Position numbers and translations under genes: made by a program. A DNA stretch of 64,000 nucleotides from NCBI GenBank assembly GCA_035279405.1, contig DATEHU010000021.1:62001-126000 (forward strand). Reading direction: 5' to 3'. Positions within the stretch are counted from its first letter, which is position 1. Each line of letters opens with the position of its first letter. Of the stretch, positions 5,722-55,226 are shown in pieces. Under the pieces are notes generated by a model. That model searched no databases. It had not been told where the DNA came from and was given only the letters and a program-made list of their open reading frames with translations. This DNA comes from Gammaproteobacteria bacterium. Its GTDB lineage: Bacteria > Pseudomonadota > Gammaproteobacteria > Natronospirales > REEB76.

Positions 5722-5751
5722 AAGGACAGTGCCGCAGGCACTCCTCATTCT

Positions 5752-5774
5752 CTCTCCCCCTTTCAGGGGGAGAG
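5752..5774. repeat. CTCTCCCCCT hairpin upstream of ltaE
   Basis: CTCTCCCCCT and AGGGGGAGAG form a 10-bp stem with a TTC loop. The same C-run/G-run theme recurs at 15936-15956 and inside the multi-hairpin elements at 12149 and 54946. It overlaps the region where the ribosome binding site of the longer ltaE start would lie. Confidence 0.6.
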
Positions 5775-5825
5775 ACTGAAGAGAGGGGGACAAAATAACT
5801 CATGCCGAAAGCACTCGTCGCCACT

Positions 5826-5940
5826 CCACTTAATCAATTGGTACGGCTCATGCGCACGGCACCTTCCCTGGCGGGCTTGCCAGCCGCACCATCCATGGTG
5901 CGGCGTGCAGCCGGCTCGGACAGCCACTGGCTGTCCGAAT
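5826..5940. repeat. Chain of extragenic hairpins between ltaE and the Skp-like gene
   Basis: This 230-bp non-coding gap holds at least three hairpins in a row: CTGGC/GCCAG (6-nt loop), GCCGCACCAT/ATGGTGCGGC at 5883-5904 (10-bp stem, 2-nt loop) and GGACAGCC/GGCTGTCC at 5918-5936 (8-bp stem). No open frame is convincing here. The build resembles the multi-hairpin elements elsewhere in the window, although the sequence differs. The region lies upstream of ltaE and downstream of the Skp-like gene, both on the minus strand. Confidence 0.6.
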
Positions 5941-5953
5941 AAACGCGCCGGCT

Positions 5954-6544
5954 TTACCCGCCACTCTTGGCCGCGGGTGCGGCACTCTTCTTCTTCTGTT
6001 GCTGCTGCAGCTGCTTCAGGTACAGAGGCCAATCCTTGTCCAGAGCTTCGGTTACGCCCTTGCTGACGTCATATTTGGTGTTGGCGTATATGGCGCCCCC
6101 GGCGTCCCGGCTGAGAATGAAGTCGTAGTGATGCGCCTTGGCATATTGATCGATCACCTTGCTCAACTCCACCTCGATGGGCTGCAACAACTCCTGACGC
6201 CGCTGATCCAGATCCTGGCGGCCCATGAGCACGAACTGCTGCAGATCATTGCGGCTGTCGTTGTATGTCTTCTCCAGCTTCGCGTAGTCGCCCGACTTCG
6301 GGTCGGCCTTGTCGAGCTGTTGCTTCAGCACGTTCAGCTTGGTGTTCTTGTCGTTGGCCTGGTCCTGAAGTTTTTTCACGATCCCCTGCAAGTCCTGATT
6401 GGCCTGCTGGCCGGCCTTGGAGTTGGCAATCACTTCCTGCAGGTTCACCACGCCGATGCGCAGCGCTTCCGCCGCCTGCACCGTGCCGGCCGCAAGCAAG
6501 CCGGCCGCCAGCACCGCGCCGACAAAAAATCCGTAACGTGTCAT
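5954..6544 (-). CDS. OmpH/Skp family periplasmic chaperone
   Basis: The 196-residue protein begins with a signal peptide ending near 'TVQAAEA', followed by the Skp/OmpH opening strand 'LRIGVVNLQEVIANSKAG'. A long charged coiled-coil arm follows (roughly residues 45-125, Lys/Gln/Asp-rich), and then a returning strand region with 'YDFILSRDAGGAIYANTKYDVS'. Skp trimers hold unfolded outer-membrane proteins in the periplasm. The start at 6544 has an AGGAGC ribosome binding site six bases upstream; the frame remains open a further 13 codons upstream, but without such a site. The Gln/Lys/Ala-rich tail is longer than usual. The gene is not in the usual bamA-skp-lpxD cluster, so this may be a second, dispersed paralogue. 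Confidence 0.85.
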   Translation of the reverse strand: MTRYGFFVGAVLAAGLLAAGTVQAAEALRIGVVNLQEVIANSKAGQQANQDLQGIVKKLQDQANDKNTKLNVLKQQLDKADPKSGDYAKLEKTYNDSRNDLQQFVLMGRQDLDQRRQELLQPIEVELSKVIDQYAKAHHYDFILSRDAGGAIYANTKYDVSKGVTEALDKDWPLYLKQLQQQQKKKSAAPAAKSGG

Positions 6545-10659: not shown

Positions 10660-10668
10660 TATCGCGGT

Positions 10669-10678
10669 GTCCGCGGAC
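10669..10678. promoter_or_regulatory. Candidate enhancer site 2 (GTCCGCGGAC)
   Basis: This second dyad has the same half-site, GTCCG, but without the two-base spacer. Its centre is 21 bp from that of site 1, or two helical turns, which suits side-by-side dimers of an NtrC-type activator. Confidence 0.45.
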
Positions 10679-10777
10679 GCACATGCACGGCCGGGACGCC
10701 GAGCCGGCACGCGCCACCGCCGGCCGCATGCCGCGGATTCAGTGGGTGCACGCCCAAAGCGCGACGCCGCAGGTACT

Positions 10778-10793
10778 TGGCATACGGCTTGCA
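10778..10793 (+). promoter_or_regulatory. Sigma-54 (-24/-12) promoter of the exporter operon
   Basis: TGGCATACGGCTTGCA matches the sigma-54 consensus TGGCAC-N5-TTGCA at all positions except one, with the invariant GG and GC at the correct 10-nt spacing. It lies just upstream of the adaptor gene. The predicted transcription start is near 10804, directly before the ATG at 10805, so the message may be almost leaderless. Confidence 0.7.
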
Positions 10794-10804
10794 CATTCAC
10801 TGAC

Positions 10805-12109
10805 ATGCAGAACACCAGCCCGAAGAAAATCGTCAATATCCGCGACACCGCCAGCCAGGATGTGGCGCTCGACAACCGCCCGCGTTTGCGACGCAAGCGC
10901 CTGTTCCTGATCGGCGGCGGCATCCTGGTACTGATCGTGCTGGCCTTGCTGGTGCCCACCGTCATCCGCATGTTCTCCGCCGAGGCCTCGGTAAGCGCCT
11001 CGCGTCTGAGCTTCGCCACTGTGCAACTGGGGCCGTTCGTACGCGACCTCGCCGCGGACGGGCGCGTGGTCGCGGCCGTGAGTCCCACCCTGTACGCAAC
11101 CTCAGCGGGCTCGGTAACCCTGAAAGTGAACGCCGGCGACACGGTGAAGGTCGGGGAAACCCTCGCCATCGTTGCCAGCCCCGACTTGAGCAGCCGCTTC
11201 GGCCAGGAGCAATCCACGCTCTCCAGCATGCAGATTGACCTCGAGCGCGAGCGCATCAACATCAAGATCGCGGCGCTCAACAACAAGGAAGCCATGGATC
11301 TGGCGAGCGTGAAACTGGAAGCCGCCACGCGCGAGATGAAGCGCGCGGAATCCGCCTGGGGGTTTCACGTCATCAGCGCCCAGGACTACGCCAAGGCCCA
11401 GGACGATCTGGCCGCAGCCAAGATCGAATACGCCAACGCCCAGGCCAGCATCCAGCTCAACAAGGACGTGCTCAATTTCGACGTGCGCACCAAACAATTA
11501 CAGGTCAAACGCCAACAACTGCTGGTGCAGGACCTGCAGCGCCAGGTCAACGATCTCACGGTGCGCTCGCCGATCAACGGCCAAGTGGGGCAGGTGTTCA
11601 TCGCTCCGCGCGCCACCGTCGCGCAGAACGCGCAATTGCTGAGCGTGGTGGATCTGTCTGCGCTGGAGGTCGAAGTCACGGTGCCGGAGAGTTTCGCCCG
11701 CGATCTGGCGAGTGGCATGCCCGCCGAAATCAGCGGCAACGGCAGCACCTGGCAGGGTACGGTGGGCGCGATTTCGCCGGAAGTGGTCAACGGCGAAGTG
11801 GCCGCGCGCGTGCGCTTCGTGGGCAATAAACCGCAGAACCTGCGTCAGAATCAGCGGCTTTCGGTGCGCATCATTCTCGACAAGCGCGACAACGTGCTCA
11901 CCGTGGCGCGCGGCTCGTTCGTGGACGAGTCCGGCGGGCGTTACGCCTACGTGGTGCACGACGGCATCGCAGTGAAAACCCCGGTGCGGCTCGGCCCGAG
12001 CTCCATAGACAAGGTCGAAATCCTGCAAGGCCTGAAAGCCGGTGACCAGATCGTGATTTCCGGCACCGATAACTTCAACGGCGCGGCGCGCGTCGTAATC
12101 AGCCACTGA
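10805..12109 (+). CDS. MacA/HlyD-type efflux adaptor subunit
   Basis: This 434-residue membrane-fusion protein has a basic N-terminus, one transmembrane helix at about residues 33-54, a lipoyl-like half-motif ('AGSVTLKVNAGDTVKVGETLAIV'), a long helical hairpin (about residues 130-240, rich in Ala, Lys and Gln), the second lipoyl half ('VRSPINGQVGQVFIAPRATV') and C-terminal beta-barrel and membrane-proximal domains ending 'ISGTDNFNGAARVVIS'. Such proteins bridge an inner-membrane ABC exporter to an outer-membrane channel of the TolC type. No Shine-Dalgarno precedes the ATG, and a sigma-54 promoter ends right before it. It heads the exporter operon. The ATPase gene follows after a 405-bp gap filled by a repeat. 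Confidence 0.85.
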   Translation: MQNTSPKKIVNIRDTASQDVALDNRPRLRRKRLFLIGGGILVLIVLALLVPTVIRMFSAEASVSASRLSFATVQLGPFVRDLAADGRVVAAVSPTLYATSAGSVTLKVNAGDTVKVGETLAIVASPDLSSRFGQEQSTLSSMQIDLERERINIKIAALNNKEAMDLASVKLEAATREMKRAESAWGFHVISAQDYAKAQDDLAAAKIEYANAQASIQLNKDVLNFDVRTKQLQVKRQQLLVQDLQRQVNDLTVRSPINGQVGQVFIAPRATVAQNAQLLSVVDLSALEVEVTVPESFARDLASGMPAEISGNGSTWQGTVGAISPEVVNGEVAARVRFVGNKPQNLRQNQRLSVRIILDKRDNVLTVARGSFVDESGGRYAYVVHDGIAVKTPVRLGPSSIDKVEILQGLKAGDQIVISGTDNFNGAARVVISH

Positions 12110-12148
12110 CGACCCCTCAGGGCACCAAACAAAATGACCATTTCTGAT

Positions 12149-12440
12149 AAATCCCCCCGCGCGCAAAGCGCGCCCCCCTTTGCAAAGGGGGGGCGAGGGG
12201 CGAAGCCCCGAGCGGGCAGCCATGGGCACAGCGCGACGCGCTGTGCGGGAGACCAGGGATGGTCTCCCTGGACCTGTACACGGCGCAGGATGGCAGAGTG
12301 TGCAGGGCTGCCCTGGACTTTCGGACGAAGCAGGGTGAGCGGCAACGCCGCGAACGCCCATACAGGATGTATGGGCTGGACTTGGGGCGGAGCAGGATTG
12401 CGCAGCCAACACGCGACGTCCGAAAGAGGGGGGATTTAAC
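12149..12440 (+). repeat. Dispersed multi-hairpin element, copy 1
   Basis: The gap between the adaptor and ATPase genes is taken up by an element bounded by AAATCCCCCC at the left and GGGGGGATTT at the right. Inside are successive hairpins: GCGCGC/GCGCGC, CCCCCCTTT/AAAGGGGGG, GGGGC/GCCCC, GCACAGCGCG/CGCGCTGTGC, GGAGACCA/TGGTCTCC, and an outer stem CTTTCGGACG (12318-12327) with CGTCCGAAAG (12417-12426) that encloses CCCATAC/GTATGGG. A shorter copy lies at 54946-55164 in the opposite orientation. The short open frames inside are by-products of the GC-rich hairpins. It may act on mRNA stability within the operon. No transposase is present. Confidence 0.85.
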
Positions 12441-12514
12441 GTGTGCCTGGTGATGACCACCGTACATTTTGTTAGACGCTCTTAGCCAATTCAGTTCACA
12501 ACGAGGAATCCGCC

Positions 12515-13228
12515 ATGTTGAAAATGAACCATCTGTCCAAGATCTACCGCACCGATGTGCTGGAAACCCATGCGCTGCGGGATTTCAGCATTGACGTCAA
12601 GGAAGGCGAGTTCGTCGCGGTCATGGGGCCCTCCGGTTCCGGCAAAACCACCTTCCTGACCATCGCCGGCCTCCTGGAAAGTTTCAGCGGCGGCGAGTAT
12701 TTCCTCGACGGCGAGGACGTGAGCGGCCTGAACGACAACGCGCGTTCCAGGATCCGCAACGAGAAGATCGGCTTCATCTTCCAGAGTTTCAACCTGATTC
12801 CGGACCTCAACGTGAGCGACAACGTGGACGTACCGCTGCGCTACCGCGGCTTCAAGGCCGCGGAGCGCGCGCGCCGCATCCGCGAGGCGCTGGAAGTGGT
12901 CGGGCTCGCCTCGCGCATGAAGCACCTGCCTTCGCAGCTTTCCGGCGGCCAGCAGCAGCGCGTGGCGATTGCGCGTGCACTCGCGGGCGATCCGCGCATC
13001 CTGCTCGCGGACGAGCCCACCGGCAACCTGGATTCGCTGATGGCGCGCCAGGTGCTGGACCTCATCGAGAATATCAATGAAAGCGGCACCACCATCGTTA
13101 TGGTCACGCACGATCCGGAACTCGCGCGCCGTGCACACCGCAGCGTGCACGTGCTGGACGGTCAGGTCATGGACCTGCACGCCGTCGCGACGCACGCGGA
13201 GCCGGTCAGCGAAGCCGCACGTGTCTGA
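12515..13228 (+). CDS. MacB/LolD-type ABC transporter ATP-binding protein
   Basis: This 237-residue nucleotide-binding domain has Walker A 'GPSGSGKTT', a Q-loop in 'FIFQSFNLIPDLNV', the signature 'LSGGQQQRVAIARAL', Walker B 'ILLADEPTGNLDS' and a switch His in 'IVMVTHDPE'. The sequence belongs to the MacB/LolD/FtsE class that pairs with FtsX-type permeases and drives mechanotransmission rather than classical transmembrane import. It is the only ATPase in the locus, so it probably serves all six permeases downstream. The ribosome binding site GAGGAA is well placed. The first permease gene begins 12 bp after its stop. Confidence 0.95.
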   Translation: MLKMNHLSKIYRTDVLETHALRDFSIDVKEGEFVAVMGPSGSGKTTFLTIAGLLESFSGGEYFLDGEDVSGLNDNARSRIRNEKIGFIFQSFNLIPDLNVSDNVDVPLRYRGFKAAERARRIREALEVVGLASRMKHLPSQLSGGQQQRVAIARALAGDPRILLADEPTGNLDSLMARQVLDLIENINESGTTIVMVTHDPELARRAHRSVHVLDGQVMDLHAVATHAEPVSEAARV

Positions 13229-24044: not shown

Positions 24045-24908
24045 CTAGCGTGTCTCCGCATTCAGCCGGCGCATCAGATCCAGCGACTGCACCTGATACG
24101 TTTCGCCGAATAGATTGAGGTGATTGAGCACGTGGTAAAGATTGTAGAGATCGCGGCGCGTACGGTAGCCGGCATCCAGCGGCCAGATCGCTTCGTAGGC
24201 TGAATAAAATTCCGGCGGAAAGCCGCCGAACAATTCGGTCATGGCGAGATCCGCTTCGCGGTCGCCGTAATACACCGCCGGATCGAAGATCACCGGTTCG
24301 CCGCTGCTCAGCACTCCCCAGTTGCCGCCCCAGAGATCACCGTGCAGCAACGAAGGTTGAAGCACATGGCCGGCAAAGAACGCGGGCAGCGATTGCATGA
24401 GCCGCGCCCCCTGTTCCTGCAACGCGCCGCGGTAGCCATTCTCGGCCGCGAGGCGCAACTGGAATCCGAGGCGGTGTTCGCGAAAAAAGCTCACCCAATC
24501 GTCGTTTGGCGTATTGAACTGCGGCGTGGCGCCGATGAAATTGTTGCGCCGCCAGCCAAAGTGTGCGCCGAAGTTTCGATGTTGTGTGGCGAGCTGTTCG
24601 CCCAGCTGCGCTGCCGCCTGCGGGGTCTTGCCTCCAAAATCCAGCCATTCCAATACCAGAAATCCGTCGTCCGTGGCCGTCACTTCGGGCACGCGCAACT
24701 CGCGGCATTCAGCCAGCGCCCGCAAACCATCCGCTTCGGCCGCCAGCATGCGCGGATCGTCCGCTGCGATCTTGACGAACCAGACACCGTCCGCACCGTG
24801 CACGCGCCACACACTGCCGCCGACGCCACGGCCGACGGCTTGCCAGCTGAACGGGCCGGCATGCTTCCCGGCCAACAGCCGTTCCACTGCATTGCGGATT
24901 TCAGTCAT
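24045..24908 (-). CDS. Fructosamine kinase family protein
   Basis: The 287-residue kinase-like fold protein belongs to the FN3K/ketosamine-3-kinase family. It has the nucleotide loop 'GRGVGGSVWRV', a catalytic Lys in 'WFVKIAAD', the family block 'FGWRRNNFIGATPQ', the catalytic loop 'LLHGDLWGGNWG' and the metal motif 'PVIFDPAVYYGDREADLAM'. These enzymes phosphorylate sugar adducts (fructosamines or ribulosamines) on protein lysines so that they detach, repairing glycated proteins. I chose the ATG at 24908; a TTG at 24920 is also in frame. Length matches the E. coli YniA class (286). It appears to be transcribed separately from the HNH gene, with a terminator between them. Confidence 0.92.
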   Translation of the reverse strand: MTEIRNAVERLLAGKHAGPFSWQAVGRGVGGSVWRVHGADGVWFVKIAADDPRMLAAEADGLRALAECRELRVPEVTATDDGFLVLEWLDFGGKTPQAAAQLGEQLATQHRNFGAHFGWRRNNFIGATPQFNTPNDDWVSFFREHRLGFQLRLAAENGYRGALQEQGARLMQSLPAFFAGHVLQPSLLHGDLWGGNWGVLSSGEPVIFDPAVYYGDREADLAMTELFGGFPPEFYSAYEAIWPLDAGYRTRRDLYNLYHVLNHLNLFGETYQVQSLDLMRRLNAETR

Positions 24909-24921
24909 GCATGCACTCAAA

Positions 24922-52896: not shown

Positions 52897-53110
52897 TCCG
52901 CGCCCGCGCGGCGGGTGACTTTCTTTGGACGTGCAAAGAAAGTCACCAAAGAAACACGCCCCCGGACGCCGCCGCTGCGCGGTTCCCTGCGCGCTTCACT
53001 CGTTCGGGGCTTCGCAGACGGTGCATCCCTGCACCGCTGCGAAGGCTCGCCATACCTGGCTTCGCCCGCTGCGCGGCCTGACCCTCACTCGCTCCAGTGC
53101 TCGGCGGCGT
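52897..53110. repeat. Dispersed palindromic repeat with GTGACTTTCTTTG hairpin
   Basis: The 360-bp gap before the ankyrin gene contains a 14-bp perfect hairpin (GGTGACTTTCTTTG/CAAAGAAAGTCACC, 52914-52947), followed by ACACGCCCCCGG, and a second 15-bp hairpin with one bulge (CTTCGCAG-A-CGGTGCA / TGCACCG-CTGCGAAG, 53010-53044). Repeats of this kind are abundant in Xanthomonas, Lysobacter and relatives. Frames within it are not genes. Confidence 0.75.
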
Positions 53111-53215
53111 CGAAGGGGGTAAATAATGTGGAGTACCCTTATTTGATGCGAACGTTCCAAGTATGGCTTAATCCCGCTTGGCTAGATTAGGGATTACTTG
53201 ACCAGGTACGACAAG

Positions 53216-53887
53216 ATGAAAAGCTGGGCATTCCTATTGTTGTTTGCATTACTACCCGTCGCGCACGCAAGCAGCAATGAACTCGATAGATGCAGCACCA
53301 CGGGTGAAAACACTGTGTGGCAAATCGTTCGGGGCAATCCCCTCCATATTACCGAAACAAAAATACTGAAAGGGAATTCAGCGCTTCCCGATGATGCCCT
53401 AACCAATGCGGTGATATTTGGATATAAGGATTTGATTTATAAATTATTAAAGAATCACACACTAGTGCTTCAACACGGTGGCAACGCCTTGTCGGCGGCC
53501 GCATCAATGGGAAGAATCGATATCACAAGAATCCTGATTGGCAACGGGATTTCAGCAAACGCACTGAATGAAAATGGCACAACAGCATTATTCGAAGCCG
53601 TGGTTTATGGCTGTACAGATGAGCTTGCATTCCTCGTTACACATGGCGCCAATATCAACTATCGTCCAAATAATCAGCACGCTACCTTAATGGTGGCCGC
53701 ATTCGCGGAACGCCACTATCAAACAGCAGCTGCTCTACTTCAGAATGGCTACAAAGCTACCCAGGGAGAAATAAGAAAAATAAAGACCATCATTACAAAG
53801 CGAGATGGTGGCGATGACGTGAATGGCGCTCTGGTATATGAGTATTTATTCCCCACACATAAAACAAAAGATAAAAGCTCGGATTGA
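53216..53887 (+). CDS. Secreted ankyrin-repeat protein
   Basis: The 223-residue protein has a signal peptide ('WAFLLLFALLPVAHASS') and then three to four ankyrin repeats, recognisable as 'ALTNAVIFGYKDLIYKLLKN', 'ALSAAASMGRIDITRILIGNG', 'ALFEAVVYGCTDELAFLVTHGA' and 'TLMVAAFAERHYQTAAALLQNG'. It is probably periplasmic and works by protein binding. The DNA is much richer in AT than its neighbours, and the gene is next to a dispersed repeat, so it was probably acquired by transfer. The ATG at 53216 gives the signal peptide; a TTG at 53198 is also in frame. Confidence 0.8.
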   Translation: MKSWAFLLLFALLPVAHASSNELDRCSTTGENTVWQIVRGNPLHITETKILKGNSALPDDALTNAVIFGYKDLIYKLLKNHTLVLQHGGNALSAAASMGRIDITRILIGNGISANALNENGTTALFEAVVYGCTDELAFLVTHGANINYRPNNQHATLMVAAFAERHYQTAAALLQNGYKATQGEIRKIKTIITKRDGGDDVNGALVYEYLFPTHKTKDKSSD

Positions 53888-54883: not shown

Positions 54884-54945
54884 CACGGCGGGTTCGCTAA
54901 ATGCCTCTGATAAAATGCGATGCAAGGTACGACAACCAGCACCCG

Positions 54946-55164
54946 AAACCCCCCCTCTATCGTACTTCGCAATCCCGCTTCGTCCGATAGTCCAAGGCAG
55001 CCCTGCACACTCTGCCATCCTGCGCCGTGTACAGGTCCAGGGAGACCATCCATGGTCTCCTGCACAGCGCGTCGCACTGTGCCCATGGCTGCCCGCTCGG
55101 AGCTTCGCTCCTCGCCCCCCTTTGCAAAAGGGGGGAGCGCGCTCCGCGCGCCGGGGGATTTAAC
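54946..55164 (-). repeat. Dispersed multi-hairpin element, copy 2 (inverted)
   Basis: This is the second copy of the element at 12149-12440, in reverse orientation. It keeps the hairpin order but lacks about 70 bp around the CCCATAC/GTATGGG stem. Paired changes keep stems intact: the outer stem is CTATCG/CGATAG here (CTTTCG/CGAAAG in copy 1) and an inner stem is GGAGC/GCTCC (GGGGC/GCCCC in copy 1). It fills most of the 343-bp gap between the MBL and rimO genes. Confidence 0.85.
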
Positions 55165-55226
55165 ACCACTGCTAACCATGTCAATTACTCTGGGCCAAGA
55201 TGCGATAGATTTTACCGCGGGCAACA

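Follow-up and report, generated by a model that had tools for sequence, protein, structure and literature searches.

The 370-bp element termed copy 1, which lies within the window (the whole stretch of 64,000 nucleotides that was analysed), is by its ends a non-autonomous IS5-family MITE. Its cargo would be a hairpin array similar to the CsrB and RsmZ RNAs, displaying on one strand unpaired GGA triplets that mostly belong to the motif CANGGAYG; we give this reading of the sequence a probability of about two in three. Its directly supported parts are the IS5-type ends, the covarying fold, the conserved GGA, the match of the loop to the CsrA/RsmE consensus, and the presence of csrA in the genome.

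Copy 1 is flanked by two co-directional ORFs, one on each side (10667-12109 and 12515-13228). The initial annotation had delimited it as 12149-12440; the structure in this interval is real, but it is only the inside of a larger unit, 12116-12485, bounded by 21-bp terminal inverted repeats. These repeats correspond to CTNAGRGCRYCTAACAAAATG, which recurs in the genome as paired sites 120-370 bp apart. CTNAG is found at the flanks, and TNA is identical on both sides in 7 of the 15 complete or near-complete copies, the rest having decayed. In a collection of bacterial genomes, the same ends bound elements of 863-916 bp with overlapping transposase frames that match PF13340, PF01609, and the IS5-family model NF033580; the hosts of these full elements are Noviherbaspirillum, Ereboglobus, and Betaproteobacteria. 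Many transposase-less elements of 95-415 bp in that collection also carry these ends. Since the ends are common to full IS5-family elements, copy 1 is assigned to the IS5-type MITEs. It shares with the MITEs of NF033580-type relatives the ends, the CTNAG flanks, the absence of a transposase, and the high copy number, but differs from them by the length and structure of its cargo and by the conserved CsrA-type loops therein. A full-length partner element with these ends was not found in the organism's own draft assembly (59 contigs).

The initial annotation had proposed a link to a REP-associated transposase, that is, a REP/BIME-type repeat moved by a RAYT protein. The genome does possess four Y1_Tnp loci, and GTGGGAGCG-type REP sequences are present elsewhere in it. 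REP/BIMEs are defined as tagged palindromes of 20-40 bp with a RAYT gene, whereas the unit described here is 370 bp long with terminal repeats common to IS5-family elements, and none of its copies lies within 1.5 kb of the four Y1 loci. The proposal is therefore contradicted and we consider it hardly credible. To note, one of the four RAYT-like loci (L062-L065) has an internal stop codon, and a 171-bp element (G000:C26:196428-196598, L070) combines the same IS5-type ends with an interior of GTGGGAGCG-type REP sequence. A DUF559 gene was also considered as a linked gene and rejected: it is present as a single genomic copy, with no core at its locus.

In the organism's own genome (2.46 Mb, 59 contigs), the core yields 79 BLAST matches, among which incomplete copies and hits of the short palindrome on the reverse strand are counted; relatives of copy 1 in this genome and in its sister MAGs number in the dozens. 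Both copies reported in the initial annotation are present where it had placed them, the second in inverted orientation. Related copies occur in two MAGs of Gammaproteobacteria of the same genus, REEB188 and REEB89. Mobility within the genus is shown, for example, by an element at L262 of genome G002 that is absent near positions 24863-24911 of the window, the flanks having partly diverged. Some related hairpin arrays have no terminal repeats, and the hairpin cargo is thus not bound to one set of ends. The features of the two copies are collected in Table 1.

Table 1. Coordinates in the window of the two copies, of the structural features of copy 1, and of two separate hairpins with the same loop motif.
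Feature	Position	Strand	Remarks
Copy 1, complete MITE, 370 bp	12116..12485	+	GGA (folded) strand is +
Left terminal inverted repeat CTCAGGGCACCAAACAAAATG	12116..12136	+	
Core, closed by outer stem AAATCCCCCC...GGGGGGATTT	12149..12437	+	
Hairpin A, GCGCGC-AAA-GCGCGC	12159..12173	+	Loop freely variable
Hairpin CCCCCCTTTGCAAAGGGGGG	12174..12192	+	
Hairpin B, GGGGC-GAA-GCCCC	12197..12209	+	Compensatory changes
Three-hairpin multibranch, closing stem GGGCAGCC/GGCTGCCC	12214..12313	+	Variants TTG/CAA, TGG/CCA, CCG/CGG
Hairpin C, GCACAGCGC-GAC-GCGCTGTGC	12226..12246	+	
Hairpin D, GGGAGACCA-GGGA-TGGTCTCCC	12247..12268	+	Loop CANGGAYG (CsrA consensus), GGA 12257-12259
Unpaired conserved GGA	12270..12272	+	Linker CTGGAC
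Hairpin E, end loop GCAGGATGGC	12274..12305	+	GGA 12288-12290
Unpaired conserved GGA	12315..12317	+	Linker CTGGAC
Stem F, CTTTCGGACG/CGTCCGAAAG	12318..12426	+	
Hairpin H, GCCCATACAGGATGTATGGGC	12356..12376	+	GGA 12365-12367
GGA in GAGCAGGATTGCGC end loop	12395..12397	+	
Right terminal inverted repeat CTAAGAGCGTCTAACAAAATG	12465..12485	-	
Copy 2 core, short form	54946..55161	-	6 unpaired GGA on - strand, 0 on +
Copy 2 including decayed terminal repeats	54897..55196 (approximate limits)	-	Judged by eye
Separate CANGGAYG hairpin GCCGCACCATGGATGGTGCGGC	5883..5904	-	Unrelated array
Separate CANGGAYG hairpin CGGTGCAGGGATGCACCG	53019..53036	-	Another unrelated array

The aligned copies share a chain-like fold made up of hairpin B, then a multibranch stem enclosing hairpins C, D, and E, then stem F. 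In the short copies, stem F closes a GCAGGATTGC loop, while in copy 1 it holds the extra internal stem already observed by the initial annotation, which proves to be a module of stem-loops of ~74 nt. Another copy contains three such units in tandem. Tandem growth of hairpin modules is visible at G000:C55:25230-25459 (L017-L019) as three units of ~62-66 bp, split at the loop as GG|A, and in L022/L012 a hairpin-module unit is duplicated in a second copy. Folding is far beyond chance, with z = -10.0 for copy 1 and z = -6.1 for copy 2.

The paired differences between the two copies quoted in the initial annotation are all present, namely GGGGC/GCCCC against GGAGC/GCTCC, CTTTCG/CGAAAG against CTATCG/CGATAG, and the change of GCACAGC to GCACAGT that gives a G-T pair. 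Covariation was then evaluated on an alignment of 28 distinct copies from three genomes (160 columns, 51 pairs tested). Two-sided compensatory change is found in 21 of the 51 pairs, whereas 1000 tree-based null simulations that preserve the tree and the per-column number of changes average 8.2 such pairs and never exceed 15. A coding explanation is rejected, as indels of 1, 7, and 10 bases between copies exclude a conserved reading frame; together with the covariation in excess of the tree null, this upholds the earlier conclusion of selection on the fold and not on a peptide. On the other hand, the excess of G-U over A-C departures that served as a test for selection on the RNA strand is absent (44 versus 33, p = 0.25): the two are equal within error, and single copies therefore give little indication of RNA-strand selection after insertion.

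Template switching at quasipalindromes, in which one arm of a hairpin serves as the template for the other, may also produce compensatory changes in the absence of selection. This process fits the perfect or near-perfect arms, the clustered changes, and the tandem growth of modules, and it may contribute to the covariation. It predicts unconstrained loops, however. Among unpaired positions, the GGA in loops and linkers are instead the best conserved, and several genomes show an identical loop on stems that are not related to one another. As a full account of the compensatory changes, template switching is quite improbable.

The initial annotation had described the loops as freely varying. This holds for the loops of hairpins A (AAA), B (GAA), and C (GAC) but not for that of hairpin D, in which the difference between GGGA and TGGA keeps the GGA. 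The numbers of parsimony changes along the loop C-A-N-G-G-A-Y-G of hairpin D are 1, 0, 5, 1, 0, 1, 6, and 0. The ends of hairpin E and stem F read GCAGGAT, hairpin H reads ACAGGATGT, and the linkers read CTGGAC. Unpaired GGA bases undergo 0.83 changes per site, as compared to 3.11 for other unpaired bases (p = 0.0008) and 1.81 for paired ones, and are the slowest-evolving class among those tested. In copy 1 and copy 2 alike, the unpaired GGA, six in number, are confined to one strand, the complementary strand having none; when copy 1 is shuffled by dinucleotides, the mean is 2.45 and the maximum 5.

The same loop emerges from a survey of 462 kb of the genome. Among hairpins closed by CA(N)xyz(Y)G, the triplet GGA is found 38 times against a mean of 3.2 over the 63 alternatives. 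Each fixed base of CANGGAYG is required (28 occurrences versus 0-2), while N is free and Y is preferred. The loop is carried by 27 different stems, and 34 of the 38 GGA-loop hairpins are intergenic. These CANGGAYG hairpins can be sorted into several families whose flanks are unrelated; some form arrays adjoining tRNA genes. Two further unrelated intergenic arrays with such loops lie in the window, at 5750-6050 (-) and 52900-53250 (-); for the latter, relatives whose stems covary (CGGTGC, CGGCAC, CGGTAC) are found at G000:C17:170692 and 203229. At G000:C17:244600-245150 (L278) and in G000:C48 (bases 4700-5000 of L284), arrays stand amid partial tandem tRNA 3' ends, tRNA-Pro-like and tRNA-Glu-like as judged by eye, which suggests another insertion route for such arrays.

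The sites of the CsrA family comprise the CsrB repeats CAGGA(U/A/C)G, the SELEX consensus RUACARGGAUGU, and the ANGGAN loop of RsmE complexes (PMC7652899). By comparison with these, the CANGGAYG loop consensus is the CsrA/RsmE site, and hairpin H displays the CAGGAUG of the CsrB repeats and comes near the SELEX sequence. The conserved loops, together with the GGA linkers, point to binding by CsrA/RsmA, a feature that had been missed in the earlier reading of this DNA. The CsrA of this organism is canonical, with both L4 and R44, and probably binds the RNA of the element. The array resembles the titrating RNAs CsrB, RsmZ, and RsmY by its many GGA in hairpin loops and linkers and by its CAGGAUG and ANGGAN loops. 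It differs from them in being multi-copy and mobile and in having no Rfam match: none of the Rfam families reaches threshold with the element, the best being RsmW, whose 17.7 bits fall short of the threshold of 52. The Rfam CsrB model itself, searched against the genome with E-values up to 10, gives no match. RNAs of this type have a GacA-controlled promoter of their own; in the element, a search for a sigma-70-like promoter found none. Against the CsrA reading stands the possibility, raised in PMC7652899, that CsrA binding is weakened where stems are very stable.

That the hairpins are generic stem-loops of untranslated RNA, acting as mRNA stabilisers or weak terminators in which the GGA loops are incidental, would agree with the strong folding of the element on either strand and with its intergenic placement. 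Such a role leaves the base-by-base loop consensus unexplained, and we consider it very improbable.

The distribution of the loop was surveyed in 397 genomes of Pseudomonadota by counting a short CANGGAYG-hairpin pattern, with the backwards pattern as a control. The pattern outnumbers the control by 1710 to 298 in csrA+ genomes and by 946 to 496 in csrA- genomes. At least 20 matches are found in 22 of 199 csrA+ genomes and in none of 198 csrA- genomes (p = 2.6e-7, lineage-clustered). These 22 enriched genomes represent eight families of Pseudomonadota, and all eight are csrA+. Within the Gammaproteobacteria, once the Pseudomonas-type family is set aside, the ratio of pattern to control is equal with csrA (2.41) and without it (2.44), while in other classes with csrA it reaches 7.4. 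As the within-class association vanishes without the Pseudomonas-type family, the link with csrA is weighed at the family level only. The enriched genomes that were examined contain elements with two adjacent CANGGAYG hairpins on unrelated stems, and base-by-base loop specificity is observed in two csrA+ genomes, picked as enriched, whereas two csrA- genomes do not show it. In the Pseudomonas-like genome G308, paired CANGGAYG hairpins occur in dispersed intergenic repeats. In genome G219 (L316, L318, L319), genes of IS110-family transposases are located between the arms of a long imperfect palindrome; the arms carry CANGGAYG hairpins, and many copies of the palindrome are devoid of transposase.

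These data also bear on whether the hairpins act as DNA, the stem and CANGGAYG being read by a transposase or recombinase, or through cruciform or single-strand recognition, with CsrA irrelevant. The copies occur in either orientation, G-U and A-C departures are similar, and in genome G219 a long inverted repeat carries the hairpins in each of its arms, all of which would suit such a role. Conversely, the loop consensus equals the CsrA site, single-stranded linkers also carry conserved GGA, all the enriched genomes are csrA+, and the Rsm proteins of P. putida have pulled down palindromic repeat RNA. Furthermore, no DNA-binding protein is known to have a CANGGAYG loop consensus. Recognition as DNA is hence regarded as unlikely, though less so than the other alternatives.

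Under the preferred reading, a MITE whose cargo is read by CsrA as RNA, the element, for which no promoter of its own was found, would be transcribed by read-through from neighbouring genes. CsrA dimers would then bind and bridge the RNA, with three conceivable outcomes: CsrA may be titrated, the neighbouring mRNA may be placed under CsrA control, or the cover provided by CsrA may soften the cost of insertion and make insertions tolerable. Relative to the upstream gene, 16 of 27 copies are sense, 8 antisense, and 3 unclear, a bias that is not significant and an orientation that does not discriminate among the three outcomes. Cis effects and tolerated insertion are ranked above genome-wide titration because the copies face either way. 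No physiological effect of the element is claimed.

Published repeats offer two parallels, both drawn by description. When RsmA, RsmE, and RsmI were affinity-purified from P. putida KT2440 (RIP-seq), intergenic regions beside copies of ISPpu8 were recovered, as well as a “long palindromic region” presented as a putative insertion site (PMC7937890). As here, the repeats are palindromic, scattered between genes, and linked to an insertion sequence; in that host they are Rsm-bound. They differ in that ISPpu8 is listed as an IS4-family element (PMC3056050), and a repeat-wide CsrA motif is not described in the consulted parts of PMC7937890. The P. fluorescens repeats R0, R1, R2, R6, and R178 are likewise MITE-like intergenic hairpin repeats and may be compared with the dispersed intergenic repeats of genome G308; in the portions of PMC2718517 consulted, they are presented as possible terminators or MITEs, without a link to CsrA. 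MITEs of IS5 elements and CsrA-binding arrays are each known already. In a literature search conducted mostly outside subscription journals, no paper was found that connects CsrA/Rsm binding with MITEs or with dispersed palindromes taken as a class, nor was a description found of what appears from the sequences to be a MITE carrying a CsrA-type array, or of a wider repeat class built from such arrays.

We tentatively propose, at somewhat less than even confidence, that dispersed and often mobile hairpin arrays built from CsrA/RsmA sites form a class in Gammaproteobacteria and other classes of Pseudomonadota, which would spread CsrA-binding RNA and shape the Csr/Rsm network. If this is true, common intergenic repeats dismissed as “junk” would become readable, their loops naming the binding protein, and the unexplained RIP-seq signal at the ISPpu8 palindromes of P. 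putida could be accounted for. CsrA/Rsm proteins are global switches, and RNA sites determine how much of them is free; by multiplying such sites, mobile elements could rewire or buffer the CsrA switch and bring new genes under its control.
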